Under the pieces are notes generated by a model. The model did no database searches. It saw nothing but the letters and a program-made list of their open reading frames with translations, and was not told the origin of the DNA. From contig JARGPU010000001.1 of the NCBI GenBank assembly GCA_029210325.1, positions 134,126-198,125 of the forward strand: a stretch of 64,000 bases of DNA. Reading direction: 5' to 3'. The first letter of the stretch is position 1. Each line of letters starts with the position of its first letter. The position numbers and the translations under genes are program-made. Below, in pieces: positions 8,872-24,501 of this stretch. This DNA comes from Alcanivoracaceae bacterium (GTDB taxonomy: Bacteria; Pseudomonadota; Gammaproteobacteria; Pseudomonadales; Alcanivoracaceae).

Positions 8872-9695
8872 CCGCTCGCCGATTGTCCCGCTGCCTTCAA
8901 TGCCTTACGGTAAGTCGCTCCCGTTAGCGCTGCCGAGAATGCACGCGGGACAAAGCGGGACGAGAACAACTGCAAGCGGTTAAATTTCCCTGGCACATAG
9001 AGCCTGCGGCGGGCTGCCATAGCAGCCAGTCCCTGGGCAGCGCAAGAAACTACATCCTGAAGAAACATGGTGTTCTCGAAGTAGCGAAGATCACTATTGT
9101 GCGCCATGGGCGTGGCGATGCCGCCCGGCGAAAAAACCGTGATCGATACCGCCTCCCCTCGCAGCTCCTCCGATAGACTTTGACCAAAGTTCGTCAGGAA
9201 CGCTTTGCTGCCCGCATAAGCCGCCTGATACGGCACCGGCATCATTCCGGCCATACTGCTCACCAACATGATTCCCCCATCAATGCCTTTGCCGGCAAAG
9301 TAAGGCACGAAGTTATTAACCAGCCATACAACTCCGATCAAATTGGTTTGCAGTAGGGTTTCAAAGCGCTCCCAGGAAAGATCCTGATGCTTGCCGAAAT
9401 GAGTAATGCCGGCGTTAAGAATAACGCCGTGGATTTCATGCTCAGCAGTCGCCTCATGGAACACACGCTGCACATCTTCATGCCGGGAAAGATCTGCAGC
9501 GATCACCTTGCAACGAACGCCATGGGCCTGTTCCAGCTTGGCTGCCAAATCAGATAGGCGATCAGCTCGCCGCGCCACTAGTATCAGGTTGGCCCCATAC
9601 TCGGCAGCGAGCTGGTTTGCCATTTCTTCACCAAGCCCGGAGGACGCACCTGTTACCAGCACCCAACGCTGGCGAAAATTTAGTTTAGCTGCCAT
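8868..9695 (-). CDS. Short-chain dehydrogenase/reductase
   Basis: A 275-residue classical SDR. The cofactor loop is TGASSGLG (15-22), ILNAG follows at about 92-96, and the catalytic set is S146/S147, Y160 and K164 in YQAAYAGSK. After the core there is a basic, hydrophobic C-terminal stretch (FNRLQLFSSRFVPRAFSAAL) that may touch the membrane, as in SDRs acting on long-chain or sterol-like lipids. The substrate cannot be read from sequence. It lies 18 bases after the FAD-oxidase gene on the same strand and so is likely co-transcribed with it, facing almA across a shared promoter region. Confidence 0.88.
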   Translation of the reverse strand: MAAKLNFRQRWVLVTGASSGLGEEMANQLAAEYGANLILVARRADRLSDLAAKLEQAHGVRCKVIAADLSRHEDVQRVFHEATAEHEIHGVILNAGITHFGKHQDLSWERFETLLQTNLIGVVWLVNNFVPYFAGKGIDGGIMLVSSMAGMMPVPYQAAYAGSKAFLTNFGQSLSEELRGEAVSITVFSPGGIATPMAHNSDLRYFENTMFLQDVVSCAAQGLAAMAARRRLYVPGKFNRLQLFSSRFVPRAFSAALTGATYRKALKAAGQSASG

Positions 9696-9713
9696 TCCAT
9701 TTCCTTCTGATAT

Positions 9714-11276
9714 CTAGCGCGGCTTGACGGAAATGCCCAGCCGGTCAGTAACCTTGCCATCGAACGTACCCTTGTTAAAACGCCGGAACTGAGTGATCCA
9801 GTCGTTCCACTTCGGATACAGCGCCCATGCCTCAGCGCTACCTTGCAGTAGCTTCAAATCCAGCCCCCAATGTGGCCGCGCTGAGAACTCGTCGCGCATG
9901 GTGCGCTGGTAAGTCTTAAGCAAACTCTGAGCACCGACAGTATCCGCCAGCATTATCACTTCCATAAACATGGAATCACGGCCCTGCTGCATGGCAATAA
10001 AGTTGTCCGTGCTTTTCACAAACCTAACCGCGATCGGACCGGTGTGAGGAATGCCCTGGGCGAGCATTGACTCGGCAAGGCTGAAGGATCGTTCGATGGC
10101 TGCCACCGTGTCACGAATATCAAAGCCCGCCTCGATAGCAATGGCATCGGTATAATTGACCACGCCGATATTGAAAACCCGATAAGAGACATTGGTAAAG
10201 TTGTCATCCCGCTGAGTGTCCAGCGTGGTTTCCAGAATCGTCGGAGCCAAGCTCGGGAAGGTGCTGAGAATCCACGCCAACGGTTTTTCGAACAGGGTAA
10301 TTAGCCCGGAGACAAGCTCGGTACCCGGCTGGCCACGTTGAGACTGTGGCTGCTCCGGCAGCGGCGCATAAGAACGGTAACGCTCCGTCACTAGCACCGA
10401 GTGGCTGCCGTCAGCGGTGGCATAGGGGCTATATTGCAGCTCCCAGTGCTCCGGCGATGCACGATCCGCATAAACCGGCTGACCGGCAATCAGTCGTTCG
10501 ATGGCACCGCCTGGCGCTGACAGATCCTCCCAGGTGGTCTTCCAGCGCTTCTCCCGCAACCAGAACTTGCGATCTGTTTTCAGGGTCACGGCATACACCA
10601 CACCCATGGAACCAATGGCAACGCGCGCCGCATTAAAAGCATCGTCATCCTGAATCAGCTCAACCGGAATCCTGCGGTTTTCTTCCAGGTAGCCAGGCCA
10701 AGTGGCGGGGTTAGTAATGCCATTATTCGGCTCGATCTGCATCATGCGGCCACGCTCACCGACAACCTGCAAACTGACGATCTGATCCGCCATCGGGCCG
10801 TACTCCAGGCCCGAACCATGGGTGGCGGTCATCATCACGCCAGCAATGGTCTGACCGTCATAGCCGCCCATATTGATCAGTGCGCGGCCATTGGCATCGA
10901 GGAACGCATTCAGGTCCTTGACCCTGATGCCGCTCATCACCCGGGCCAGCGTCGGATCGCCGGCGTCCTTAAGGCGACTGCGATCCAGTGCCAACGGCTT
11001 GTTCAGCTTCTCCGGTGTAAACAGCACATCCCGGGTAATAGCCACCTCTGAGGCCGAGTGGCCAGAACCGGTCATACGCACACGCTTGCCAGCCCGGCTG
11101 GCCCGTCCGACATAGTCCACCAGCTGGGCAGCGCTGTCGGGCTGCAGCAAATATTGGGGTTCCACCGATTCAGTCTTGGTCCAGTTCTCCCAGTAACAAC
11201 CGGACATCAGCAACAGCAGGGACAGCGTGGCGCCGCGCGCCAGCATGGTGGGAAGGGAAACGGTCATGATATTCAT
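9714..11276 (-). CDS. FAD-linked oxidase lipoprotein (aldonolactone oxidase/VAO-like)
   Basis: A 520-residue flavoprotein with a lipoprotein signal: the lipobox LLLMSGC puts the acylated cysteine at about residue 27, so the mature enzyme is probably anchored outside the cytoplasm. The FAD-binding type 4 domain (about 40-215) shows the RMTGSGHSASEVA pyrophosphate loop and TATHGSGLEYG; the C-terminal half resembles the D-arabinono-1,4-lactone oxidase domain, ending with HWGLDLKLL and YPKWNDWITQFRRFNKGTFD. No covalent-FAD histidine is certain, though H in the GSGHS loop is a candidate. Substrate unknown: sugar lactone or bulky alcohol oxidases share this fold. Export is unusual for the family. 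Pairs with the downstream SDR. Confidence 0.82.
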   Translation of the reverse strand: MNIMTVSLPTMLARGATLSLLLLMSGCYWENWTKTESVEPQYLLQPDSAAQLVDYVGRASRAGKRVRMTGSGHSASEVAITRDVLFTPEKLNKPLALDRSRLKDAGDPTLARVMSGIRVKDLNAFLDANGRALINMGGYDGQTIAGVMMTATHGSGLEYGPMADQIVSLQVVGERGRMMQIEPNNGITNPATWPGYLEENRRIPVELIQDDDAFNAARVAIGSMGVVYAVTLKTDRKFWLREKRWKTTWEDLSAPGGAIERLIAGQPVYADRASPEHWELQYSPYATADGSHSVLVTERYRSYAPLPEQPQSQRGQPGTELVSGLITLFEKPLAWILSTFPSLAPTILETTLDTQRDDNFTNVSYRVFNIGVVNYTDAIAIEAGFDIRDTVAAIERSFSLAESMLAQGIPHTGPIAVRFVKSTDNFIAMQQGRDSMFMEVIMLADTVGAQSLLKTYQRTMRDEFSARPHWGLDLKLLQGSAEAWALYPKWNDWITQFRRFNKGTFDGKVTDRLGISVKPR

Positions 11277-11645
11277 CCTGTGCCCGCGTAAACGGGTCTA
11301 TTGTTGTTATTACCCCGCCAGATCAACGTCTGGGCCATTCCTGAAACTAAGCAAGCGATGCTTACTTATCTCCTCGGGCGGGTAAATAGGACGAAGGTAC
11401 CAAAAAAGAATCAGGGCTTGCCGAGACCTCCCAATGCGGCCTTGAGCATCAGACGGCACTCCACCAATAGGGGGCCCATTTGCTCCTCCGCCAGGGAGCG
11501 GCCTCTTTCGCCACAGGCCCCGGCGACCGAGCCAATTTGTCATCCCGGCCAGTGCAGACCCATGAAAGGCCCATAATGACCTTCGTCATATCGGGCCACG
11601 CCGGTAAGGTCATCCCATCTGAACCTGACATTGGCGAGTGTAAGC
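11277..11645. other. Divergent promoter region between the FAD-oxidase and almA
   Basis: A 369-base gap without a credible gene; the short frames in it lack ribosome sites and family features. It must hold the promoters of both divergent genes. The only clear structure seen is the palindrome at 11348-11364, listed separately. A GGCGAG sequence precedes the almA ATG. Confidence 0.6.
11348..11364. promoter_or_regulatory. Palindromic operator candidate upstream of almA
   Basis: TAAGCA-N5-TGCTTA, a perfect 6-bp inverted repeat with a 5-base spacer (17 bp in all), in the divergent region. Its size suits a dimeric repressor such as a TetR- or GntR-type protein. No candidate regulator gene is adjacent, so the binding protein is unknown. 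Confidence 0.4.
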
Positions 11646-13214
11646 ATGGCCATCGATACCGTAGACGTGATCATCATTGGCGCCGGCCTGTCCGGCATTG
11701 GCGCGGCGGTACACCTTAAGAAGGACTGCCCGAACAAGACTTTCATGATTCTGGAGGGTCGCGACGCCATTGGCGGCACCTGGGATCTGTTCCGCTACCC
11801 GGGAATCCGCTCCGACTCCGACATGTTTACCCTCGGCTATAACTTCAAGCCCTGGACCGAGCCCAAGGTTATTGCCGACGGCCACCTGATCCGCAACTAC
11901 ATCAACGAAACCGCGGACGAGTACGGTGTACGCCGTCATATCCGCTTTGGTCACAAGGTGGCCAACGCCGAATGGTCCAGCGATGAAGCCCTGTGGACCC
12001 TGACGGTGCAGAAGAAGGATGGCAGCGAGTCCAAAGTGCGCGGCAACTTCCTGATCAGCTGCACCGGCTACTACAACTATGCGGAAGGCTATACCCCTGA
12101 CTTTCCCGGCCGCGATGCCTACAAGGGCACCTTTATTCACCCGCAGCACTGGCCGGAGAATCTGGATTACACCGACAAGAACGTGCTGATCATCGGTAGT
12201 GGCGCCACCGCCGTCACCCTGCTGCCAGCCATGACCGACAAAGCCAAGCATGTCACCATGCTGCAGCGCTCACCGTCCTATGTGGCGACGGTGCCGCAGG
12301 AAGACCCGATCTCTGTTCAGCTACGCAAGGTTCTGCCGGAGAAGATGGTGTATCACCTTGCCCGCGGCCGTAACGTTGCCCTTCAGGCGGGCATTTACCG
12401 CCTGTCCAAATCGCAGCCCAAGTTTATGAAGAAGGTGCTGCTCGGCATGGTCGAGAAGCAGCTCGGTAAAGACGGCGATATGAGCCACTTCACCCCCAGC
12501 TACAATCCGTGGGACGAGCGTCTGTGCGCGGTGCCCAATGGCGATCTGTTCAAGGTGATTCGCAAGGGCAAGGCGTCCGTGGTTACCGATCATATCGATA
12601 CCTTTACCGCAGAAGGCATCAAGCTCAAGTCCGGCAAAGAGCTGAAGGCGGACATCATCATCAGCGCCACTGGCCTGTCTCTGCAGCTGCTTGGCGGCGT
12701 CAACGTAGCAGTGGATGGCAAGCCCATCGACATCACCAAGTCCATGTCCTATCGCTCGCTGATGCTATCGGATGTGCCGAATGCGGCGATGATCTTCGGC
12801 TACACCAACGCATCCTGGACCCTGAAGGCGGATATCAGCAGTGAGTACCTGTGCCGTCTGATGAATCACATGGACAAGACGGGTGTACGTCAGGTGACCC
12901 CGCGTCAGCGTGATCCGAATGTATCTGAGTCACCTTTCCTCGATATGCAGTCCGGCTATATCCAGCGCGCCAAGCACATCTTCCCGAAACAGGGAAATAA
13001 GGCGCCATGGGCCACAAAGCAAAACTACTTCTTCGATCTGGCCCAGTTGCGCTACACCAAAATCGATGACGGCATTCTCGAGTTCCGTAACCCGCCCGCG
13101 GCAGTAAAGGCCGCGCCAACTCCGAGAGCCGCGCCGAAAAAAGCGGCGAAAAAATCCGGCACGACTGCCAAGCGCGGCAAGGCAACTACTGAGAAAGCGT
13201 TGAAGCAGGCCTGA
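11646..13214 (+). CDS. almA: Flavin-containing monooxygenase, AlmA-like (long-chain alkane oxidation)
   Basis: A 522-residue NADPH/FAD monooxygenase of the AlmA group, which in Acinetobacter and Alcanivorax supports growth on long-chain n-alkanes. First Rossmann motif IIGAGLSGIG (10-19) binds FAD; EGRDAIGGTWDLFRYPGIRSD is typical of this group; the monooxygenase fingerprint appears as YKGTFIHPQHWP (159-170), with Y for the usual F; the NADPH Rossmann motif is LIIGSGATAV. The last 35 or so residues form a lysine/alanine/proline tail (RAAPKKAAKKSGTTAKRGK) not needed for the fold. The ATG at 11646 is preferred over an upstream TTG at 11631. A terminator follows. Substrate range is inferred from the family. 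Confidence 0.88.
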   Translation: MAIDTVDVIIIGAGLSGIGAAVHLKKDCPNKTFMILEGRDAIGGTWDLFRYPGIRSDSDMFTLGYNFKPWTEPKVIADGHLIRNYINETADEYGVRRHIRFGHKVANAEWSSDEALWTLTVQKKDGSESKVRGNFLISCTGYYNYAEGYTPDFPGRDAYKGTFIHPQHWPENLDYTDKNVLIIGSGATAVTLLPAMTDKAKHVTMLQRSPSYVATVPQEDPISVQLRKVLPEKMVYHLARGRNVALQAGIYRLSKSQPKFMKKVLLGMVEKQLGKDGDMSHFTPSYNPWDERLCAVPNGDLFKVIRKGKASVVTDHIDTFTAEGIKLKSGKELKADIIISATGLSLQLLGGVNVAVDGKPIDITKSMSYRSLMLSDVPNAAMIFGYTNASWTLKADISSEYLCRLMNHMDKTGVRQVTPRQRDPNVSESPFLDMQSGYIQRAKHIFPKQGNKAPWATKQNYFFDLAQLRYTKIDDGILEFRNPPAAVKAAPTPRAAPKKAAKKSGTTAKRGKATTEKALKQA

Positions 13215-13540: not shown

Positions 13541-14398
13541 ATGGAATCGAAAGTCACGAAAAATAATGATTGCGCCATTCCGTGCAACGATCCCGAAAGC
13601 ACCAACTCTTCTTCTGGCAATCTACTTGGCAAAGCGGCAGCTGGCATCGCAGTAGGTGCAGCAGGTCTGGGTGCAGCAGGCAAAGCCGATGCCTTCTTCT
13701 GGAACCCTAGCCGTGTGATCCTGCCTGATGCTCCAGCCCCATGCACGGGTGTCTGCGCCCCCCAGGCAACCGAGTTTCAAACCATTATCGATAATGAAGC
13801 TAAAACCAGGTTCAGGCGCATGGATTGGAGCAATCCTTTAGACTGGCTCGTCATTGCAAACTCTTCATCGAAACTGCATAAAATAAATGCCCACAAAGCG
13901 GTTATCAACTTATTAACGCAGTGCCAACGTTATGCGTTTGGAATGCCGGTCAATGTCTTGCAGCACTGTTTGCAAACGGCCACGCGAGCAGCGAGAGCGA
14001 ACGCCAGCGATGAAATGGTTCTGGCTGCATTGCTGCATGATGTCGGCATCGCTATTTCTTATCCTGGCCATGCACAGATATCCGCTTCGATTATTCGAAG
14101 CTTTGTATCTGAAGCTGTGTATAAAACCGTGCTGCATCATCACGAATTCGAATTGGCACACTATGGTCACAGGATTGGGGAGTCGACGACGATGCGTGAC
14201 CTGTACCTGAATGAACCTTGTTATGCCACCGCAGTGAAATTTGTTGATGAGTGGGTGCAGGTGTCTTACGACCCTAACTACAATAGCTATACGCTAAGTG
14301 AGTTTAAGCCGTTAATTCAAGCAACATTTGCGGAACATGACACAGAAACTCTGAACGTGACGATGACTGATTGTTTTAGAGAGCAGCCGGCATACTAA
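13541..14398 (+). CDS. HD-domain protein of the PhnZ/COG4341 type, probably exported (paralogue 1)
   Basis: A 285-residue protein of no assigned function. The N-terminal 50 residues include a glycine/alanine-rich hydrophobic run (KAAAGIAVGAAGLGAAG, 31-47) ending near ADAFF, like a signal or membrane segment. The rest has the metal-binding pattern of HD oxygenase-like proteins (PhnZ, myo-inositol oxygenase relatives): H142 in LQHCLQTATRA, H166-D167 in ALLHDVG, H177, H199-H201 and H207 in HHHEFELAHYG, and D236 in VKFVDEW. That ligand set could hold two irons. Base use is AT-richer than the flanking genes, suggesting acquisition. The second paralogue starts 11 bases downstream. Hydrolase rather than oxygenase activity is possible. 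Confidence 0.75.
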   Translation: MESKVTKNNDCAIPCNDPESTNSSSGNLLGKAAAGIAVGAAGLGAAGKADAFFWNPSRVILPDAPAPCTGVCAPQATEFQTIIDNEAKTRFRRMDWSNPLDWLVIANSSSKLHKINAHKAVINLLTQCQRYAFGMPVNVLQHCLQTATRAARANASDEMVLAALLHDVGIAISYPGHAQISASIIRSFVSEAVYKTVLHHHEFELAHYGHRIGESTTMRDLYLNEPCYATAVKFVDEWVQVSYDPNYNSYTLSEFKPLIQATFAEHDTETLNVTMTDCFREQPAY

Positions 14399-14409
14399 AG
14401 GACTTACCA

Positions 14410-15285
14410 ATGAGTAACGCTAACGAGAAAAATAAAGATACATCCTTGGGTGAGACAAACGATGCTGGTTCATATGACTACTTCGGGGATAGCTTCTATA
14501 AGAAGGACCTGCAGACCATGCTGCTGGAAAAGGAGTGCATAGAAAAGTCCCAACGTTTTGGACTGTCACGCCGTCGTTTTATGACGAGTTCTTTTGGGGC
14601 TGTCGCTGCGACCAGTATTTTTGGGCAGATAGCGGGCTTTTCCAGCAGGGCCGAAGCGATGGACGGATTTGTTTCGCCTTCAGAGGATCTGTACCAGTCT
14701 GTTGCTACAACGACAAGCTTTACCCGGCTTGATCAAAGCACCGCAGCGGATTGGACGATCATTGAAAACGCGGTACGAGCGCAGAGTCAGGGCGTAGTCA
14801 ACACCATCAAGAACATGATTAACGCCTGTCGCGGTTACCATCTGGGCTTTGGGCCTGATCAATTCACCCACATGACACAAGCGGCCACGCGAGCAAAGCG
14901 TGACAACGCATCTGATGAAATGATTCTTGTGTGTTTGGTTCATGATCTGGGTAAGGTGATCTCTAACCTGGCGCATCCCGACATTATTGCCGGTATCGTG
15001 CGTCCTTATGTATCCGATGGTTCGTACTATCTGCTGCGTCATCATATGGAATATCAATGGAAGCACTACGGTCACTATATATTCAAGCCTACCAATGGGC
15101 GACAGCGTTATGTTGGTGAGTCGTGGCATGCGGATGCCGTTAGATTCAGTGATGAGTATGATCAGAAGGCGTTTGATCGATACTACCGTACGGACCCCAT
15201 AGAAGCATTTCTGCCATTGGTAGAGCAGTTCTTTGGGACAGACAATCCGAGAAAAAATATGACTCACCAAATTTGCTTTGGTTAA
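14410..15285 (+). CDS. HD-domain protein of the PhnZ/COG4341 type with Tat signal (paralogue 2)
   Basis: A 291-residue paralogue of the preceding protein. Residues 53-85 form a twin-arginine signal: SRRRFMTSSFGAV, a hydrophobic run and FSSRAEAMD as a likely cleavage region, preceded by an unusually long 52-residue leader. Tat export fits a protein that acquires metal in the cytoplasm. Putative metal ligands are H154 in FTHMTQAATRA, H178-D179 in LVHDLG, H189, H211/H212 in LRHHMEYQWKHYG and D248 in RFSDEYDQKAFD; the YDQ-AFD...Y...P motif is common in COG4341 proteins. It shares an operon with paralogue 1. The pair may form a hetero-oligomer. Reaction unknown. Confidence 0.78.
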   Translation: MSNANEKNKDTSLGETNDAGSYDYFGDSFYKKDLQTMLLEKECIEKSQRFGLSRRRFMTSSFGAVAATSIFGQIAGFSSRAEAMDGFVSPSEDLYQSVATTTSFTRLDQSTAADWTIIENAVRAQSQGVVNTIKNMINACRGYHLGFGPDQFTHMTQAATRAKRDNASDEMILVCLVHDLGKVISNLAHPDIIAGIVRPYVSDGSYYLLRHHMEYQWKHYGHYIFKPTNGRQRYVGESWHADAVRFSDEYDQKAFDRYYRTDPIEAFLPLVEQFFGTDNPRKNMTHQICFG

Positions 15286-15694
15286 TCGTACCCGTACGTT
15301 CACCCGTACTTTGGGTCATCGCAAAAACTGGCCGCGGCTCAATGACGAGGTCATACCCAGTAAGTATAATAATTCAAGACACCCATTAATTCGTACACAG
15401 CATACATCGCGACAAGACTGCACAGCGGAGCTATTGATTGCTTATTTTTATAGGCACTTCAAGTGGACAAAGCCGAGCAGATTGAATTGCTAGCGTGCAA
15501 GAACCGATCACAATTACAACCGCTTAGGTTTTTATCTTCAAATATTTCATTAACCATGAGTGTCGGCTCATGCCTGACGGTAACGTTCTAGATGTTGATA
15601 AAAATTCGATAGTTGATTCTTATTGATTTATTGGTGAGCCCACCAGGATTTGGTATTGGGGGGCCCACCAGGATTTCAGCCTGAAACCAAAGGA
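15286..15694. other. Long 3' intergenic region after the HD-domain pair
   Basis: A 409-base AT-rich gap between convergent transcription units. No protein gene is supported; the frames present have no ribosome site or family likeness. It contains the 14-bp direct repeat listed separately and the small palindrome TTTCAG-C-CTGAAA at 15674-15686. No classic terminator with a T-run was found. Confidence 0.5.
15638..15676. repeat. Two 14-bp direct repeats
   Basis: GCCCACCAGGATTT occurs at 15638-15651 and again at 15663-15676, 25 bases apart start to start. The spacing is two and a half helical turns. It lies just beyond the stop of the haem peroxidase gene. It may be a duplication scar or a remnant of a short repeat family; no function is evident. 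Confidence 0.7.
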
Positions 15695-18445
15695 TTATTT
15701 GTCTTCGTGACGCTGGTGCTTGAAGAAGATACCAGTGTCACCGAAGTGCGAGGTGGTGAACGGCGACATCGTCTTTAGCGAGCCCACCTTCACGGCACTG
15801 GCACGACGCTCATTGGCATAACGTCTGGTCACCCACGGGAAGATCGATGTTCTGATATTCCGGTCGGTGGCGTACACGTCATATACCGTGGTGCCGGCCG
15901 GCAGTTCGGTCAGGTCATCACGGAAATCATGGGCAGCACTGCTAAAGCGATTACGTACTTCACTGGTCGGAACGAAGTAAATCTGGGTCGGCGACTTCAC
16001 CGTGCCTACCGCACTGCCGTCCTGATTCACTTCCGCCATGTCATCAACACGCAGCAGGGTGGGCTTCGAGGTGACTAGCGAGAAGATCAGGCTGGTGCCC
16101 AGCGACTCGTTCACTTCCTGCTGCACATACTGCGACAGTTCGTTGGCGAAGTAGTTGTAGTTACTACCCTGACCGGTCAGGGTGTAAAGCGCCGAGACGT
16201 TCTCGGAGGGCTTGCCATCTACGAATGCCTTCCACGCCAGACCCGGTGCAAAACCACGGTCCGACGGATCACCAGTGACAGACAAGCGCAGCAGACCGCA
16301 TTGGTTGCCTTTGAACAAACCGGTGAAGCTGTGGTTTGCCGTCGGCACAAAGCTGACTTTCGCCATCGCGCCATACGGGTGCAGCGGCTTTTCATAACCC
16401 GGCGGGCTGACGTCGGTGCGATCCTTCACTTTCTTCCAAAGAATGCTGTCGATCAGACCCAGCACATCAATCGGTACCAATGCCGGACGCTCACCATCGG
16501 CGTATTCGGTACGCATCGCACCGTTCACCCACAGATGTTCCTGTTTGTCGCATCCGTTCCATGACTCATAGTCATCCGGAATATTCAGGCCCCACGGCTT
16601 AAACGCATTATCGACGCCAACAAGGCTTGACCGCAGCTGCGGGAAGTGACGGCGCAGCACATCCACCATGGTGTTGTCGTTGACCCAGTCCAGACCTTCC
16701 TGGGTATACACACCCGGACGGAAGTCCTTGGTAAAGAAGCGGTCAGTCATCAGACGGCGCGAAGCGTTCATGATAAAGATCTGGAACGCGGTCTCACCAA
16801 AGCCGAAGCCTTCGGGACGCACGGTTTCGGCCAGCTGACCGACCATGGCATCGATCATCTCGATATCGTTGTTGTAAATCCGCTTCAGCTCGGCCAGCAC
16901 TTCCGGGTCCGTGGTCAGATCCTCGAATTTGGTGATCGGGTTCAGGCCGATCTGGCGGCGGAATTCGTTGTAGCGCGGCACGCCACGCTCGCGATCACGA
17001 ATCACATCGATGACAGCAAGGTCGATATTGCCGGCGAACGGTACCGACAGGTTACGCAGGAAGTTCGGGTAGTTCTTCAGTGTCAACGCACCCGGATTGG
17101 TGATACCGAACGAGTACCACAGACGCTCCGGTCGCTCGACACCAAGCATGCTCTCGGCATCGCCGTCACGGGTGTCCTCAATCGGAATCTGCCGGGCGAC
17201 CACATTGGAGCCGATGTCATAGACGTCAATGTTGTCACGCATCAGCGGGTGCATCCGGTACACGGCAACGAATTCTTCCGTCAGCGTATAGGGCACGCCG
17301 TAGTTGTTAGGCTCGGTCGAACCGACAATGCCGGCAAGCGCATGGTCAATGGAGCCGGAACCGACACCGTCCGAAAACATCGGGTTGAAGCCGAGCAGCA
17401 TGGAAACAAAGGAATCTGTCTTCTGCAGATCCTCATAAAGCATTTCCACTTCACCCTGATACTTGTCACGCAGCTCGCCGTCGCCGAGCAGGCCCCACCA
17501 GTTGGCGTACATGGCACGCTCGGTCACAGGGTTGGCAATGATCGCCGGGGTCCACTCCACCGTGTGGATTTTTGCCATCAGCGCCGAGTTGATCAGACGG
17601 GCACGGTCATAAACCCACTGATCACTCATGCCGGGGTATTTGCTGTTAAGCATATCGGCAATCGCATTGTGCTCACGCACGAACAGCTGATGCAGCATGC
17701 TCAAACCCACCCACCAGTTCTCGCTGAAGCCGGTGATCGGTACGCCACCGAACAGGCCGGTCGGCAAGGTGCCGTCGCTGTTGATCTTCAGCTTGCCGCC
17801 AACGAACGCACGAATTTCGTCATTGGTTGCCTTGTCGCTACCGTAGATCTGCGAGCCATCCCACCAGTGGGTATTCTCGTTTATGTAGGTTTCCGGCTGG
17901 CCGGCTTCTGCATCGGTGCGGGTCGGGTCGGGCAGCGTACGCTTGATCGTCAATGATCCGGAACCCAGCGGATCGCCGGCCGGCAGCGGCACTTCAATGG
18001 CATTGTCCGTGGTGCCTGGCCCATGATCGAACCAGTCGTGGGTCATGAACTGAATCCACGAGGCGGCGATAAAGTTAAGCGATGCCGCCGGCTTGAACTC
18101 GTCACGGGCCATCAGATTGTTACTGATGTCACGGGGGTTCGGTGTCAGCAAGGTATCGGTTTCACCGCGGCTTGCCTCGCGTGCAACGTTGCGGCCGAAG
18201 CGAATATTGGCCGCACCCTCTGCCGGGTTCGACAGAATATTACAGGTGCCGTCTTCCGTACGGGCGGTCAGGCTGCGCTCATCACAGACGATCTCGGCAT
18301 TGCGCGCCTGCCAGTTTTCAACATCAATCAGATTATTTTCAAACAGCTGTTCCCGCTCGGCCGCCAGTGTCAGCAAGCCAGCGACAATGCCGAGCGTGCC
18401 AAACTTGGTCAGAGCGGGCCAGGTTACCCATACGGATGCGGCCAT
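15695..18445 (-). CDS. Animal-type haem peroxidase, alpha-dioxygenase-like, with a C-terminal extra domain
   Basis: A 916-residue protein of the animal haem peroxidase superfamily. Residues 14-29 are hydrophobic and could be a membrane anchor or signal. The distal haem histidine is H136 in FMTHDWFDHG; THWWDGSQIYGSD (192-204) and LHQLFVREHNAIADML (251-266) are superfamily signatures; EFVAVYRMHPLM (391-402) holds the proximal histidine H399. HDW...DH and VYRMHPL match plant and bacterial fatty-acid alpha-dioxygenases better than mammalian peroxidases, so lipid oxygenation is a reasonable inference. About 250 residues after the catalytic core are not recognised. AGGAGAG precedes the ATG. The palindrome at 18557-18575 lies about 110 bases upstream. 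Confidence 0.85.
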   Translation of the reverse strand: MAASVWVTWPALTKFGTLGIVAGLLTLAAEREQLFENNLIDVENWQARNAEIVCDERSLTARTEDGTCNILSNPAEGAANIRFGRNVAREASRGETDTLLTPNPRDISNNLMARDEFKPAASLNFIAASWIQFMTHDWFDHGPGTTDNAIEVPLPAGDPLGSGSLTIKRTLPDPTRTDAEAGQPETYINENTHWWDGSQIYGSDKATNDEIRAFVGGKLKINSDGTLPTGLFGGVPITGFSENWWVGLSMLHQLFVREHNAIADMLNSKYPGMSDQWVYDRARLINSALMAKIHTVEWTPAIIANPVTERAMYANWWGLLGDGELRDKYQGEVEMLYEDLQKTDSFVSMLLGFNPMFSDGVGSGSIDHALAGIVGSTEPNNYGVPYTLTEEFVAVYRMHPLMRDNIDVYDIGSNVVARQIPIEDTRDGDAESMLGVERPERLWYSFGITNPGALTLKNYPNFLRNLSVPFAGNIDLAVIDVIRDRERGVPRYNEFRRQIGLNPITKFEDLTTDPEVLAELKRIYNNDIEMIDAMVGQLAETVRPEGFGFGETAFQIFIMNASRRLMTDRFFTKDFRPGVYTQEGLDWVNDNTMVDVLRRHFPQLRSSLVGVDNAFKPWGLNIPDDYESWNGCDKQEHLWVNGAMRTEYADGERPALVPIDVLGLIDSILWKKVKDRTDVSPPGYEKPLHPYGAMAKVSFVPTANHSFTGLFKGNQCGLLRLSVTGDPSDRGFAPGLAWKAFVDGKPSENVSALYTLTGQGSNYNYFANELSQYVQQEVNESLGTSLIFSLVTSKPTLLRVDDMAEVNQDGSAVGTVKSPTQIYFVPTSEVRNRFSSAAHDFRDDLTELPAGTTVYDVYATDRNIRTSIFPWVTRRYANERRASAVKVGSLKTMSPFTTSHFGDTGIFFKHQRHEDK

Positions 18446-18556
18446 GATATCTCTCCTGAGTTACTTTGTTTTTATGTTGCCGACGCAGCCGCGCCGACGA
18501 TGTCCGGTTTACCAGAGCGCATTAGTGCACAGGAGAAAAAACCTTTCAAAGAATGG

Positions 18557-18575
18557 CCCCCTCCTCGCGAGGGGG
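18557..18575. promoter_or_regulatory. Palindromic operator candidate upstream of the haem peroxidase gene
   Basis: CCCCCT-N7-AGGGGG, full site CCCCCTCCTCGCGAGGGGG. It is 112-130 bases upstream of the peroxidase start. A 19-bp site with identical half-sites and spacer length lies at 21366-21384 upstream of the cytochrome gene, with 15 of 19 positions the same. The MalT/LuxR-type regulator gene lies between them and is the obvious candidate for binding. Confidence 0.6.
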
Positions 18576-18628
18576 TGAATGACATTGCCTGATGTCAGGG
18601 AAAAATCAGATGGCCTGCTGAAGGATAG

Positions 18629-21295
18629 CTATCTAGTACGAACGGCCGATTCAAGATAATCAGAATGGACAATCGCCTCAGCACGCGTGGATACACCGAG
18701 CTTGGCAAAGATATTTTTCAGGTGCCACTTGATCGTTGACAATGCCACGCCGGTACTCTCGCTGATCGCCTGGTTGGACAGGCCGCGACGCAGAAGCTGC
18801 AGGATTTCCTGTTCCCGCTGGGTCAGAACGGCATCGTCAGCCTCTACGACAGAGACCCCGGCAGGCTGGCTCAGCAGATCGCTGAACATCTCCAGATACA
18901 ATGGCGACACCTTGATCAGGCCGGCCTTAATCGCCGCCATCAGCAACTCGCCAAGCCCCGGCGCTTCGTCAAATACCGTGCGACTCACGCACTCCTGGCC
19001 ATGCTCGGCAAAGATTCGCCGTAACCATTCCATCGCCTGCTGATCCTGCCCTTGCAAGGACAGCAGGACGGCCTGATTGGCCTCGACCACCACCAGCCGC
19101 GCCATCACCCTGTCTCTGCGCAGAACCGTGGCCAAACGCGCCAACAGCTTGCTGGCATCGTTGTATTGATGCCGGGCACGCAGCCACAAGGCCGTCGCCA
19201 GTCCATAGCGCTCCCAGCCCTCGTCATAAGCAAGCGGATGATCCCATACTCCGCGCGCCAGGCGTCGCCCAAGCTGATACTGGTCGGCTACCCGGGTCAC
19301 CGATTGCAGATCAGCGGCAAAGGCCTGACGCATACTTTCATGCGCCAGTTGCGCCACAAAGCGATCATACAGGCCCAGCTGCAACACCCTGTCGAGGTGC
19401 AACATCAAGCGCGTGGCACGATTTTCTTCGCCGCGAATATGCAGCACTCGCACCAATGTCAAATAAGCCGCATTAATCACTTCGGTGGCACAGGCAGAGC
19501 TCACCAGCGGCACCAGCTCTTCACAAAGCTGAAACGCATCATCGAGCATGTTCTGTTCATAACGCACCACTGCCATAGCCGTGGCGGCGTTAACCCAGGC
19601 CGGGCTCAATCGCCGGCCCTGATCATGACGCCAGAAAAGGTCCGTTGCGGCCTGCACACTCTGGCTCATCCTTCCCGAGTTACGGTCGCAGAGAACCAGA
19701 ATCAGATCGGCATAACTTTCCAGAAAGTGATAGCCAAGCTGGGACAGAATATCCTTTGCCCGCTGGGCATGTTCAAGCGCCGCAGGGAACTCGGCGCGCA
19801 AAAGGTGGTGGTAGGCAAGAATCGCAAGAGAGAAGGCGCGAATGTCGTGTTGCGACACCGCGTCCATCAGCATCGCGCGATCAGCACTGATGCGGAAATT
19901 GGTTTCATTCTGGAACAACTGCAGCATGACTTCGAGAAACGGGCCATGACTGTGTTCGGCGAAGCGGCCGGTGATTTGCTCACCTGGAACCGACTCCAGC
20001 AAGTCCATGTAGTAACGGGCCTGATTAAACTTGCGGGTCAGGATCAGTCCGCATATCAGCAGAAAGCCGAGATCACTGTTGCGAACCACCTGCTCTTCCG
20101 GCAGCTCCGATACCCAGCGGATCAGCGTTGGCAGCTCACCGGCCTTGGACCAATGATCACAACAATCCTGCAGCATGCCCATAAAGAGGTTGTTATCACC
20201 GCTACACTGGACATGCTGCAATGCCGCTTCATGCTCACCAGCGGCCATCAGCCAGCTGGCAGCAAGACGATGCAGCTCCGGAACCCGCTGCGGCGCCTCG
20301 ACCTGCAAACGATTTCGCAGAAACTCCTGGAACAGGCCATGAAAGCGATGCCAGCCAGACTGCTCTGGCAACGGCTGGATAAACAGCTCGCGGGTCAGCA
20401 GGCTTTCGATAATCAGCCCGGCATCATTGCGGCCGGTCAGGATGTCGCACAATGCCGGGCAGAAGCGCTCGGTAATCGAGCTGCACAACAGCAAATCACG
20501 CTCCAGCGGCGGCAAGTCACGCAGCACAACCTGGGCAAAGTATTCGATCAGCGCCGGATGGCTGGCACTGAACGTCAGGGCATCGCGGGCGTCGCGGTGA
20601 TCATGCGCCAGCAAGGCAAAGCGGATACCCGCCAGCCAGCCCTCGGTCATCTGCATCAGCTGGCTGATATCAGCCTCGGTGAGTGGACGCTGCAGGGTCA
20701 GCTCCGCCAGCGTTTTCAGCTCCTCCGCAGACAGGTCCAGATCATCTCGATCGATCACCCGCAGCTGATCGTTCAGTTGCAACCGCGCCAGCGGCAGATC
20801 CGGCTGCACTCTTGAGGACAGGAGCACCCGGACATGGGTCGGCAGCTTGTCGACCAGCTGGGCAAACACTTCTTCTGTGAGGGTGCTTTTTACCAACTGG
20901 AAATCGTCCAGCACGATCACCAGCGGCGTACTGACCTGATGAAACGACTGCAACAGCGATTCCGCCACCGCATCGGCCGGCAGGGCAACATCGGCAACCA
21001 GCTGGTTATAGGAAAAGGTATCGAAGGCCGGCACCGCCCGACGCAGCGCCTCGAACCAGTGACGGAAAAACACCACCGGGCTGCTGTCGCTGGCTGATAA
21101 CGGCAGATATACCGTGGTCTTGTCGTCGCTGTGCACCAGCCATTGCGTCAGCAATGTTGATTTTCCACTGCCCGCAGGCGCCAGCAACAGCGTCAACGGC
21201 GCACCGGTACTGGCATCGAGTAACGTCAGCAGCCTGTCTCGTACGATCAGCCTGCTCTCGACAACGGAATAACTTCCTTTTTTCCATGAGGGCAT
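18629..21295 (-). CDS. MalT/AlkS-like ATP-dependent LuxR-family transcriptional activator
   Basis: An 888-residue LAL-type regulator. An N-terminal STAND ATPase has the Walker A loop LAPAGSGKST (39-48) and the Walker B strand VIVLDDF, then a helical TPR-like sensor region over the middle 500 residues, and a C-terminal LuxR helix-turn-helix (about 822-885; LTQREQEILQLLRRGLSNQA, LSTIKWHLKNIFAKLGVSTR). Length and order match MalT and AlkS, the alkane-responsive activator of Pseudomonas putida. The inducer here is unknown; the neighbouring oxidases suggest a hydrophobic substrate or product. The gene lies between the haem peroxidase and cytochrome genes, each with a matching palindrome upstream. 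The ribosome site is weak. Confidence 0.88.
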   Translation of the reverse strand: MPSWKKGSYSVVESRLIVRDRLLTLLDASTGAPLTLLLAPAGSGKSTLLTQWLVHSDDKTTVYLPLSASDSSPVVFFRHWFEALRRAVPAFDTFSYNQLVADVALPADAVAESLLQSFHQVSTPLVIVLDDFQLVKSTLTEEVFAQLVDKLPTHVRVLLSSRVQPDLPLARLQLNDQLRVIDRDDLDLSAEELKTLAELTLQRPLTEADISQLMQMTEGWLAGIRFALLAHDHRDARDALTFSASHPALIEYFAQVVLRDLPPLERDLLLCSSITERFCPALCDILTGRNDAGLIIESLLTRELFIQPLPEQSGWHRFHGLFQEFLRNRLQVEAPQRVPELHRLAASWLMAAGEHEAALQHVQCSGDNNLFMGMLQDCCDHWSKAGELPTLIRWVSELPEEQVVRNSDLGFLLICGLILTRKFNQARYYMDLLESVPGEQITGRFAEHSHGPFLEVMLQLFQNETNFRISADRAMLMDAVSQHDIRAFSLAILAYHHLLRAEFPAALEHAQRAKDILSQLGYHFLESYADLILVLCDRNSGRMSQSVQAATDLFWRHDQGRRLSPAWVNAATAMAVVRYEQNMLDDAFQLCEELVPLVSSACATEVINAAYLTLVRVLHIRGEENRATRLMLHLDRVLQLGLYDRFVAQLAHESMRQAFAADLQSVTRVADQYQLGRRLARGVWDHPLAYDEGWERYGLATALWLRARHQYNDASKLLARLATVLRRDRVMARLVVVEANQAVLLSLQGQDQQAMEWLRRIFAEHGQECVSRTVFDEAPGLGELLMAAIKAGLIKVSPLYLEMFSDLLSQPAGVSVVEADDAVLTQREQEILQLLRRGLSNQAISESTGVALSTIKWHLKNIFAKLGVSTRAEAIVHSDYLESAVRTR

Positions 21296-21365
21296 AATCT
21301 TTTCTTCTTATTATGGTTGTCCATCTGCACAAACGTTAGCACAAACGTACTGAAACTGTATGTGA

Positions 21366-21384
21366 CCCCCTACTCAGGAGGGGG
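21366..21384. promoter_or_regulatory. Palindromic operator candidate between the regulator and cytochrome genes
   Basis: CCCCCT-N7-AGGGGG, full site CCCCCTACTCAGGAGGGGG, in the divergent region: 61-79 bases before the cytochrome ATG and 71-89 before the regulator ATG. It matches the site at 18557-18575. MalT-family boxes are also G-rich, which is consistent but not proof. Confidence 0.6.
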
Positions 21385-21444
21385 CGACTTTGACTTTCAC
21401 AAGGAGCAAGGTCTGTCCTCGGCTAACCCCTTCCGGAGCAGACA

Positions 21445-23763
21445 ATGAAAACAACATCACGACTCGGAATGATCGCCGCCCCGCTGCTATTGGCAGGTTG
21501 TCTCGGCGAGTCGGTCGGCGAATTTCCGAAACAGGAAAAGCTTTGCGATTTTGACGCCGCCCGCGAGGCAGTGCGCGCTGCCTCAGCGGCGCATTTCCCG
21601 CAGCCACAGGTCAGCGAGATGCTGGTGAACGGTTCCCCGGTCTGGTCATCGGGCAGCCCCGGCGCCGCTATCGTCCTGCGTCCGCGCGATCTGGTGACCC
21701 TGCGCGGCAGCGGTTTCGGTGGTGGCCCGGATATCGACTTCAGCAAGATCATGATCGGCAACACCCGGGTACTGGAAACCGATTTGCGCATGTTCGAACA
21801 GCGCCTCGATCTGGGCAAACAGGTCAACTTCGAGATCCCGCAAACTCACAGCACCTGGGACAAGGACATCGTTACCTGGCAAGACGACGAAGTGACATTC
21901 CATGTGCCCGAACATGCCAGCGGCGGACCGCTGAAGCTGCAGGTGCAGAAGCGTACCGGCTGGCTCGAATCCATGATTCGCCCCGGCGAACCGCACAACG
22001 TGATTGATGCGCAAACCGCCCGCATTACCGACCCGGAGTTTTCCCACGAGTGCGACGTGGTTTCCCTTCTCAGCGAGGAAACCAAAGCGATCACGCCGAT
22101 TGATGTCAGCGTCGATAATCCGGCAATGGATTCCTTGCTGCGTTACGGTCGCGAAATTTTCTGGTCCTATGATTTCAACGTCGGCCTCGCCCATTCGGTG
22201 CGCAACCTCGACTGGACCAAAATCTTCAACTACAAAACCCGCGATCCGATTACCCGCAATATGGCCGATCCGAACCTGCTGTTCGGTGCCCACAAGACCA
22301 ACCCGGCGCAGGTGCCGGACGAAGCCTGGAAAGAGGTTTATTTCGATCCCTACCCGCAGCCCAACCCGATCCCGGGATTGCTGACGGTGGAACCGCAGCT
22401 CACCAGGGGCAATACCCGTGACAGTGGCTGGGTTGGCTATCGCTACGCAGAGTCGAGCCATCCTTATGTCGGCCGCGGCGAGCGTATCGGTTTCAACTGC
22501 GCGTCCTGCCACGGCTACCAGATCAGCTACGAAGCCGCGCCGGGCGAACTCGTCACCCGGGTGTTCCCCGGCTTGCCGAACCCGCGCTGGAGCATGAAAT
22601 GGGCAGTACTGGGCGACAAGCTCGGCACCACCACGGCCACTTTTGATGGCATCAGTGCGGAAGAGGCGGGGCCGAGCTGGGCATCCGGCAAGGCGAAGAT
22701 CGACAAGACCATGCTGCTGTACCACATGCCCGCCGGCACCGGTGAACACAACATCGTTCGCCTGTCTGATGAAGGCAGTAAAACCGACAACGACTATCAG
22801 TTCTCACCGATCGTGATTCCGAACGTCACCAACTACATGGCGATCCGCCGATCACTGTCACACACCGAGTCCTATGTCGGTTTTGAAGGCTCCTACATTC
22901 ATTCCGAAGAACCGGATGGCGCCACCGGCTCGATGAACAAGCAAGGACTGCAGGCACTGACGGCTTACATGACCACGCTGGACGAGCACGACAGCGATCT
23001 GATCAACGTCGGCTTGTATCGCTGGCTGAAGAGCACAGGCCAGCTCGGTGCACAAACCGGCAACGTAGCCATCAGTGAAGGCGAGTTTGTTTCACAGGGC
23101 TGGCAGAACTTCGCTGGCGTACAAGGTGCCGTCAATACCGGTCAGGCTGCCTATGATCGTGACTGCGGCAGTTGCCATAACGATCATCTGGGCGCCAACA
23201 CCAACGAGCGTATGTTCCGCCTGGATGAAGTCGGTCGCTTCTTTGCGCCGACCATCTACCAGAAAGATCAGCAATCAATCCGCGCCAGCTTCCTGCGCAA
23301 CATGTACTGGGTGCAGTCACGCGGCCTGCTGAGCGACGGCCACGTGCGCAACATGGAAGATCTGGTCGATCCACAGCGCTGCCAGACCGGCTCGCCGCTG
23401 TATAACCAGTACTACACCCTGCATGCGCCGGCGCGACCACCACTGGGCAGTGCCGACCAGCCGGCCAACTGGCCGGACCTGAACCGCAAGGGTGATGTGT
23501 TCCGCGTGCCGCGCAGCGACGAGAAATGGTTTGATCCGGTGCCGGCGCAGCGTAACCGCTTTATCGAACGGCACAAGTACTTCAGCAAAGTCGGCTGGGA
23601 CAGCAAACACTACTACTGGGATTACCAGAAAATGCGCGCCGAGTATGGCCCGGCAGAGATGGGCACGCCCGGCCCGATCGGTCTGCCGGCCACACCGCAT
23701 CCTTGGTGCGCGGCCAGCAGCAGCGACGTGATGCCGCTGGTTCAGTACGTGTTGACGCTTTAA
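21445..23763 (+). CDS. Large two-haem cytochrome c lipoprotein (RoxA-like?)
   Basis: A 772-residue exported protein. The signal MKTTSRLGMIAAPLLLAGC gives a lipobox with the acylated cysteine at 19. Residues about 60-170 look like an IPT/TIG-type beta domain (RPRDLVTLRGSGFGGG). Two c-type haem sites follow: CASCH at 352-356 and CGSCH at 574-578, some 220 residues apart. Two widely spaced CxxCH sites in a protein this size recall the RoxA rubber oxygenase and MauG/CcpA di-haem families, but the family was not settled from sequence. It could oxidise, or accept electrons from, products of the nearby peroxidase. The gene is divergent from the regulator gene and ends with a UUCG terminator. Confidence 0.72.
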   Translation: MKTTSRLGMIAAPLLLAGCLGESVGEFPKQEKLCDFDAAREAVRAASAAHFPQPQVSEMLVNGSPVWSSGSPGAAIVLRPRDLVTLRGSGFGGGPDIDFSKIMIGNTRVLETDLRMFEQRLDLGKQVNFEIPQTHSTWDKDIVTWQDDEVTFHVPEHASGGPLKLQVQKRTGWLESMIRPGEPHNVIDAQTARITDPEFSHECDVVSLLSEETKAITPIDVSVDNPAMDSLLRYGREIFWSYDFNVGLAHSVRNLDWTKIFNYKTRDPITRNMADPNLLFGAHKTNPAQVPDEAWKEVYFDPYPQPNPIPGLLTVEPQLTRGNTRDSGWVGYRYAESSHPYVGRGERIGFNCASCHGYQISYEAAPGELVTRVFPGLPNPRWSMKWAVLGDKLGTTTATFDGISAEEAGPSWASGKAKIDKTMLLYHMPAGTGEHNIVRLSDEGSKTDNDYQFSPIVIPNVTNYMAIRRSLSHTESYVGFEGSYIHSEEPDGATGSMNKQGLQALTAYMTTLDEHDSDLINVGLYRWLKSTGQLGAQTGNVAISEGEFVSQGWQNFAGVQGAVNTGQAAYDRDCGSCHNDHLGANTNERMFRLDEVGRFFAPTIYQKDQQSIRASFLRNMYWVQSRGLLSDGHVRNMEDLVDPQRCQTGSPLYNQYYTLHAPARPPLGSADQPANWPDLNRKGDVFRVPRSDEKWFDPVPAQRNRFIERHKYFSKVGWDSKHYYWDYQKMRAEYGPAEMGTPGPIGLPATPHPWCAASSSDVMPLVQYVLTL

Positions 23764-23779
23764 CTCTTATCGGGCACTT

Positions 23780-23805
23780 GGGGCGCTTCGGCGCCCCTTT
23801 TTTTT
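23780..23805 (+). terminator. Intrinsic terminator after the cytochrome gene
   Basis: GGGGCGC / GCGCCCC stem closed by a TTCG tetraloop, then eight Ts. It starts 17 bases after the stop codon. Confidence 0.93.
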
Positions 23806-23811
23806 GCCTTG

Positions 23812-24411
23812 TCAGTGCGGCGCAGTACTGCGCACCAGCGCCTTGCCGGTTCTCTGATAGCGGGCCAGAAAATCCTCCGCCTGCCATTCCTGCGGATACA
23901 ACTCGGAAAGATCACGCTGCATTTTCATAAACAGGTGCGCCGTCATGGCCGCATCCGCCAACGCCCGGTGATGCTGGCCCTCCACCGGAATTCGGTGCAG
24001 TTCCACCAGCGTCGCCAACTTGTGGTTGGGCGCCCACGGATAGAGTCGGCGACCGATCAACACCGTGCACAAAAATTCACTGGAGCAAAGGCGACCGCAC
24101 AGGTCCAGCTCATACTCCCAAAAGCGCCGATCAAAACTGGCGTTATGGGCAACCAGCGTGGCATCGCCAACAAACTCGTGAACCTGCGTCATGACCTCAT
24201 CAGGCGACGGTGCAGTGCGCACCATGGCTGGGGTAATGCCCGTCAGCGCAGTGATAAATCGCGGCACCCGGCCGCCCGGGTTCATCAGACTTTGCCAGCT
24301 GGCAACAATCTCATCACCCTCCACTATCACCGCCGCCACTTCCAGAGCACGACCACCCTGCCCAGGCATCAGGCCATTGGTTTCAAAATCGATTACGGCA
24401 TAGCGGTACAT
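23812..24411 (-). CDS. DEDDh-family 3'-5' exonuclease (DnaQ-like)
   Basis: A 199-residue stand-alone exonuclease domain like the epsilon subunit or RNase T. Exo I motif is VIDFET with D8 and E10; exo II is AHNASFDRRFWE; exo III is HHRALADAAMTAHLF with the histidine that marks the DEDDh group. These acidic residues bind two metal ions. It acts in the cytoplasm on 3' ends of DNA or RNA; it lacks the polymerase-binding tail of DnaQ, so it is probably not the replicative proofreader. It is convergent with the cytochrome gene and has no operon partners. Confidence 0.87.
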   Translation of the reverse strand: MYRYAVIDFETNGLMPGQGGRALEVAAVIVEGDEIVASWQSLMNPGGRVPRFITALTGITPAMVRTAPSPDEVMTQVHEFVGDATLVAHNASFDRRFWEYELDLCGRLCSSEFLCTVLIGRRLYPWAPNHKLATLVELHRIPVEGQHHRALADAAMTAHLFMKMQRDLSELYPQEWQAEDFLARYQRTGKALVRSTAPH

Positions 24412-24487
24412 GTCAGCGAGCTACTATCTGATTGATAGGCCGCTACCTTAGCAAAGCGGGCCTTTCCCATACAGACCGCATGGTCAC

Positions 24488-24501
24488 TTGATCCAGATCA
24501 T
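24488..24501. promoter_or_regulatory. Fnr/Anr-like box upstream of ompW
   Basis: TTGATCCAGATCAT matches the Fnr/Anr consensus TTGAT-N4-ATCAA at nine of ten fixed positions. It is 58-71 bases before the ompW ATG, a distance that suits activation under low oxygen. ompW of Escherichia coli is known to respond to FNR. Confidence 0.6.

Follow-up and report, generated by a model that had tools for sequence, protein, structure and literature searches.

Activators of the LuxR/MalT type acting at inverted repeats provide the closest described parallels to the locus considered here. According to the part of PMC7567727 available to us, the MalT site in Actinoplanes is TCATCC-N5-GGATGA, and its 3' end lies 34.4 +/- 1.0 bases from the transcription start site. 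The available part of PMC8784404 describes, for AlkS in P. putida, a 20-bp inverted repeat which is present both at the target promoter and at the promoter of its own gene, giving positive feedback. In a window of 64,000 nucleotides (the whole stretch of DNA analysed) the gene for a regulator of this broad type lies between two 19-bp palindromes, beside genes for a homologue of fatty-acid alpha-dioxygenase and for a two-haem lipoprotein. The regulator has the same domain plan as MalT of Actinoplanes sp. SE50/110 and of Escherichia coli, and the half-sites have a common GGA core (GGATGA in MalT, GGAGGG in the window), but it differs from MalT in half-site, spacing, targets and equivalog score. 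AlkS of Pseudomonas putida GPo1 and Alcanivorax borkumensis is a LuxR/MalT-type activator with its 20-bp inverted repeat upstream of the target promoter, and is likened to the present case by repeat size and placement. Unlike AlkS, the window regulator would act on genes for an alpha-dioxygenase homologue and a lipoprotein with two haems. On comparison of sequences, we consider it highly probable that the two palindromes are operators of the activator predicted to be encoded between them. The general type, an activator of the LAL (large ATP-binding LuxR-type) kind with an inverted-repeat operator, is ordinary; the instance is real and conserved, has unusual targets and is undescribed as far as the searched literature shows, a literature largely without subscription papers having yielded nothing on this operator or on how bacterial alpha-dioxygenases are regulated.

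The palindromes and the regulator gene

The main features of the locus are as follows, the first gene also being called the peroxidase gene below.

15695-18445, minus strand: fatty-acid alpha-dioxygenase homologue (An_peroxidase), 916 aa; aligned residues ~20-619 and a C-terminal extension
18557-18575, no strand: site 1, 19-bp dyad CCCCCTCCTCGCGAGGGGG, candidate operator of the alpha-dioxygenase-like gene; dyad kept in orthologous upstream regions
18629-21295, minus strand: LAL-type (MalT/AlkS-like) regulator, 888 aa; N-terminal AAA-type ATPase and C-terminal GerE/LuxR helix-turn-helix (HTH)
21366-21384, no strand: site 2, 19-bp dyad CCCCCTACTCAGGAGGGGG, between the divergent regulator and cytochrome genes and a candidate operator of both
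21445-23763, plus strand: two-haem c-type cytochrome, 772 aa; CASCH at 352, CGSCH at 574 and a weak IPT/TIG match

Both palindromes of the form CCCCCT-N7-AGGGGG, at 18557-18575 and 21366-21384, are present where the preliminary description had placed them. It had counted 15 of 19 bases as equal between the two sites, for which a recount gives 16 of 19, and had called arms and spacer identical, which holds for the arms CCCCCT and AGGGGG but not for the seven-base spacers, equal at only four positions. Its statement that there was no third full copy can be extended to the whole genome (3,027,771 bases, 99.85% complete), in which the exact pattern occurs twice, both copies being those described here, and a reversed control pattern does not occur. 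With independent bases, 0.47 exact matches are expected per genome, with a probability of 0.08 of two or more, and 0.0002 pairs of sites within 2.8 kb. When up to two mismatches were allowed, 40 places were found in the own genome as against 61 for the reversed control, and three in the window alone as against 2.98 expected. Near-matches are therefore not in excess over the control, and only the two exact sites stand out. The sole site with one mismatch in the own genome (contig C20, position 14815) falls within an open reading frame (ORF). From the dyad centre to the start codon there are approximately 121 bp for the peroxidase gene, 70 bp for the cytochrome gene and 80 bp for the regulator gene.

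Domain profile matches bear out the 888-residue LAL-type regulator previously reported between the sites. Its N-terminal P-loop ATPase matches AAA_16 with 35.6 bits (cut-off 32.6) and AAA_22 with 34.9 bits (cut-off 27), and its C-terminal HTH matches GerE with 56.1 bits over residues 823-877 of 888. The MalT-like TPR region, at 31.4 bits, is below the cut-off of 45, and against the NCBI MalT equivalog model the protein scores 267.8 bits and does not reach the cut-off of 537. Judged from its ATPase and HTH, the regulator is of the LAL kind.

Conservation of the genes and of a looser dyad

Among the 193 genomes searched, the own genome (G000) included, the regulator was found in 30 at E<=1e-60 (three of these just 24-26% identical), the peroxidase in 36 at E<=1e-20 and the cytochrome in 13. 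Wherever the regulator reached at least 33% identity it was adjacent to a peroxidase and/or cytochrome gene (27 of 27 genomes; in G045 in two contig fragments). Three Moraxellaceae MAGs (L021-L023) have all three genes in a cluster; in L022 the contig ends within the peroxidase gene. Clustering of ORFs from 39 loci gave 28 for the regulator, 26 for the peroxidase and 17 for the cytochrome, with the next family at 7, a count that overlooked the regulator present in L129. Five loci came from a scan of named genomes, one match being distant and partial. Among 369 genomes sampled from the class, the own genome alone had the peroxidase at E<=1e-150.

The palindrome of the preliminary description is rarely kept upstream of orthologues in its exact form, but a looser dyad is, in every upstream region with an adjacent regulator. 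Exact CCCCCT-N7-AGGGGG occurs in 32 of the 193 genomes and at the locus only in G000 and G006; it occurs once each, off-locus, in eight family members (G001, G012, G018, G028, G033, G034, G037 and G042). Five genomes of other families (G074, G078, G079, G143 and G170) hold 8-103 exact copies, nearly all of those listed having an A/T-rich CTTT..AAAG centre; they resemble CCCCCTTT-N-AAAGGGGG palindromes, and are probably a dispersed repeat of a different kind. As the exact pattern is seldom at the locus and is also found off it, the exact form is not the conserved unit. The refined dyad is approximately CCCCCTCC-N3/4-GGAGGGGG, in which the inner bases are conserved and the spacing varies by one base: the two half-sites of the window have a gap of 3 bp, those of peroxidase-linked loci in the family mostly one of 4 bp.

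For 45 target genes, upstream stretches of at most 350 nt were scored for this dyad with a consensus built after the first orthologous upstream regions had been seen. Each stretch was counted back from the first residue that aligns with the window protein, which in some genes lies as many as 27 residues into the coding sequence. A score of at least 11 was reached in all 32 target upstream regions with an adjacent LAL gene (21 peroxidase and 11 cytochrome, including L143, whose LAL is only 28% identical), and in none of the 12 in which the LAL gene was absent, broken or not adjacent, or the peroxidase short and divergent. Random 350-nt windows of the same loci, some of which may hold true sites, reached this score in 72 of 3000 cases. 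The scored rows share descent, and as such 32 of 32 is a strong association and not 32 independent events. The 12 comprise two peroxidase orthologues without a regulator, two short divergent peroxidases and eight cytochromes, five of these without an adjacent regulator and three with the regulator broken or not found. The peroxidase orthologues of G147 and G174 are 67% identical to that of the window, and in these genomes there is no LAL at E<=1e-60 and the dyad is below threshold. Sub-threshold cytochrome upstream regions include L031 (10.5, a degraded dyad), L032 (9.5, a half dyad) and L035 (8.0), and in G010 a half dyad is left beside a cytochrome gene without a LAL gene. The cytochrome-adjacent regulator at L031 (contig C3 of G003, near 9006-9879) has broken reading frames and the dyad there is degraded, as if operator and regulator were decaying together. 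The 45th upstream region, in neither group, is that of the L021 peroxidase (169 nt, score 11.5), where the LAL gene is about 3 kb away within the cluster; the peroxidase upstream regions of L022 and L023 are cut off and were outside the scoring. Four loci scanned apart (L076, L086, L088 and L090) have the dyad, with scores of 12.0-12.5, and the partial genes at L097 and L098 have none in the DNA examined, G044 (L097) holding a site at position 3443 of contig C103.

A strict pattern, CCCCTNC-N3/4-GNAGGGG, was counted over 46 family genomes and occurs 38 times, of which 19 are upstream of the peroxidase gene, one is at site 2 of the window and 18 are elsewhere. It is found upstream of the peroxidase in 19 of the 21 family genomes with this gene, the window genome and G002 deviating at inner bases. 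The concern that the site might be frequent elsewhere is answered by the two exact copies in the own genome and by the 18 off-locus strict matches in the family, as against 19 matches of the reversed control. Three of these 18 were inspected. Reading of the ORFs around inspected matches in G001, G192, G028, G031 and G036 placed none beside a regulator, peroxidase or cytochrome gene, and they were set aside as background, G192 excepted. In that genome (L151, contig C26, 5608-5626) an exact 19-mer, the reverse complement of site 2, lies within a long A/T-flanked hairpin between divergently transcribed dapA-like and HD-domain genes, and may be a chance occurrence, a terminator or a further target.

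In a tree of 37 regulators the 22 that are peroxidase-linked form one group with support of 100/99, and the cytochrome- or trio-linked regulators sit outside it and are not shown as one clade; given long branches and a broken row (G003), the deep order of this tree is not to be read. G005 and G016 each hold two regulators, one peroxidase-linked and one cytochrome-linked, and in these genomes the regulon seems to be divided between two regulator paralogues using similar dyads. Both target genes of the window genome seem to be served by a single regulator, which is of the cytochrome-linked kind.

Promoter geometry and alternative explanations

Of 22 peroxidase upstream regions, 13, all from the own family, have an extended -10 element, TGnTAGAGT, that begins 30.5-33 bp past the dyad centre on its downstream side and is visible as an aligned block. 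An extended -10 at this standard spacing is missing in the other nine, site 1 of the window among them. The distance from the start of a -10 hexamer to the start site is usually 12 bases, and on this assumption the 3' end of the dyad falls near -33 in the 13 promoters. This estimate of ~33 for relatives of the window is close to the 34.4 +/- 1.0 of MalT, and the predicted geometry is activator-like. Two candidate promoter elements were located in the window itself.

18520-18531, minus strand: TGTGCACTAATG, possible weak -10 of the alpha-dioxygenase-like gene, in a form common to G002
21333-21341, minus strand: TGCTAACGT, candidate extended -10 for transcription of the regulator gene, at 37 bp from the site 2 centre

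The idea that site 1 of the window stands one helical turn further from its -10 (~42 as against 31.5 bp) was dropped, this -10 being too weak to support the claim. An extended -10 facing the regulator gene is found in 7 of 15 divergent regions, 30-49 bp from the dyad (37 bp in the window, 36 in G002, 30 in G006, 49 in L021-L023 and 43.5 in L143). Because it is present in only these seven, and at varied distances, control of the regulator by itself through site 2 is plausible but irregular. The small candidate regulon originally proposed, with peroxidase and cytochrome as partners of the LAL regulator, is supported by these data, with the regulator itself added as a possible target.

In the mechanism that we infer, a signal, perhaps derived from a fatty acid or lipid, would trigger the activator, which would bind as an oligomer to inverted half-sites (approximately CCCCCTCC and GGAGGGGG) separated by 3-4 bp and adjoining the core promoter on its upstream side. 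RNA polymerase would thereby be recruited at promoters that have an extended -10 but lack a good -35 box. Through site 1 this would raise expression of the fatty-acid alpha-dioxygenase-like enzyme, and through the shared site 2 that of the two-haem lipoprotein and probably of the regulator itself.

It is improbable that the regulator instead acts on the dyads as a repressor. Sequence does not fix the sign of regulation, and the available part of PMC9628970 describes negative regulation by a LAL of Streptomyces, but in 13 promoters the dyad is upstream of the extended -10 and not over the predicted start site, and both MalT and AlkS are activators according to the parts of PMC7567727 and PMC8784404 at hand. 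Slightly less probable again is recognition of the dyads by a different, unlinked transcription factor, with the adjacency of the regulator being coincidental. Gene linkage does not amount to binding; however, no upstream region without an intact adjacent LAL gene or with a divergent target reaches the threshold (0 of 12, those of G147 and G174 included), G003 combines a broken LAL frame with a degraded dyad (10.5), and only half a dyad remains in G010, which has no LAL gene there, and such weakness or absence of the dyad where the regulator is missing argues against another factor. Least probable of all is that the dyads are RNA hairpins, which would either end the regulator transcript by intrinsic termination or attenuate the gene downstream, for although site 1 lies between the regulator and peroxidase genes on the same strand, short stretches folded alone give -15.5 (site 1) and -13.3 kcal/mol (site 2), and a terminator scan accepts site 1 with the tail CCATTCTTTG, this tail is broken, with no uninterrupted T run longer than 3, the scan yields two terminator-like sites where shuffled sequence gives a mean of 2.8, there is no Rfam match in the window from 15000 to 24500, the dyad lies between divergent genes in 15 of 32 upstream regions (11 cytochrome, 4 peroxidase), and in 13 peroxidase upstream regions a candidate -10 is downstream of the dyad, which would not then be part of that transcript.

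The two candidate target genes

The gene downstream of site 1, initially described as encoding a haem peroxidase, is indeed there and has an An_peroxidase match, but its identity is amended to a homologue of fatty-acid alpha-dioxygenase. The nearest solved relatives of the 916-residue protein in the PDB are alpha-dioxygenases (E 1.4e-116 to 6e-108), other peroxidases matching at 1.2e-33 or weaker. Residues ~20-619 align to nearly the whole of the known enzyme, represented by 4kvj/4kvl and 4hhr and by cyanobacterial CalDOX (E 1.4e-116). We take 4kvj and 4kvl to be structures of the rice enzyme and 4hhr of the Arabidopsis enzyme. Chain 4kvl has F at the position of the aligned Tyr in 4kvj, and is presumably a Tyr mutant, which fits the F seen there in the alignment. 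Eight active-site residues (H136, H294, T299, F392, Y396, H399, F557 and R564) are all present and are identical in 16 of 16 aligned sequences, covering the catalytic Tyr, the proximal and distal His, the carboxylate-binding His, Thr and Arg, and two Phe by the Tyr; their rice-enzyme names, from the available part of PMC8720084, were carried over by hand through the alignment, in which the chain is numbered three higher. By these comparisons the protein is a homologue of fatty-acid alpha-dioxygenase and a predicted enzyme. Its AlphaFold model is too poor for use (mean pLDDT 42.2). Unlike known alpha-dioxygenases, the window homologue bears a C-terminal extension of ~300 residues, for which (residues 620-916, window 15695-16588) no Pfam family matched and the PDB gave no convincing hit (best E 0.008). 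The extension is conserved across 16 aligned alpha-dioxygenase homologues. Bacterial alpha-dioxygenases are known from several phyla and are poorly understood outside plants, as far as the accessible text of PMC8720084 goes.

The two-haem cytochrome c gene reported downstream of site 2 was recovered at 21445-23763, with two CxxCH motifs. The N-terminus of its product contains LLAGC, which we take to be a lipobox and so a lipoprotein signal. In 17 aligned relatives at E<=0.1, a cytochrome c match is present in all 17 and TIG in 14, and a weak CCP_MauG match (best E 0.027) in four. The NCBIfam di-haem peroxidase model gives the window protein 20.5 bits against a cut-off of 150, no match to solved di-haem enzymes in the PDB was found with either the single sequence or a profile, and the AlphaFold model is too poor for use (mean pLDDT 47.8). 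RoxA and PA2077/PA2078 are likewise large proteins with two CxxCH motifs, spaced by 199 residues in RoxA and 245/235 in PA2077/PA2078 according to the available part of PMC4496055, as compared with 222 in the window protein; kinship with RoxA or with the fatty-acid di-haem enzymes PA2077-PA2078 is a lead only. A second relative of the cytochrome, 59% identical and without an adjacent regulator or dyad, is encoded elsewhere in the own genome (L039, contig C13, 8469-10808).

A wider reading of the locus, which we hold tentatively and at somewhat less than even weight, is that of a dedicated, autoregulated regulon for fatty-acid alpha-oxidation in the Pseudomonadales. Here a LAL subfamily acting at a C/G-rich dyad of its own would control a tailed bacterial alpha-dioxygenase and a two-haem lipoprotein that work in a common pathway, and in some genomes duplication of the regulator would have left each copy in charge of one enzyme, with almost identical operators. 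Within the family the dyad, a short sequence, is near-unique per genome. Such an activator/operator pair, if defined, could be used to learn directly when alpha-oxidation is employed by bacteria, and would tie this process to a two-haem lipoprotein that is so far uncharacterised; it would also be a natural example of a regulator that was duplicated while its operator was retained.

We note some further genes around the alpha-dioxygenase-like gene. A flavin-binding monooxygenase gene is present at window 11631-13214. Among the loci compared, only that of G002 also has it next to the peroxidase gene, with 93% identity over 485 residues. Two tandem HD-domain/MIOX-like proteins with 35% mutual identity are encoded at 13541-15285, convergent to the alpha-dioxygenase-like gene, and the first of these has weak similarity, over 63 residues, to the HD protein beside the G192 site.
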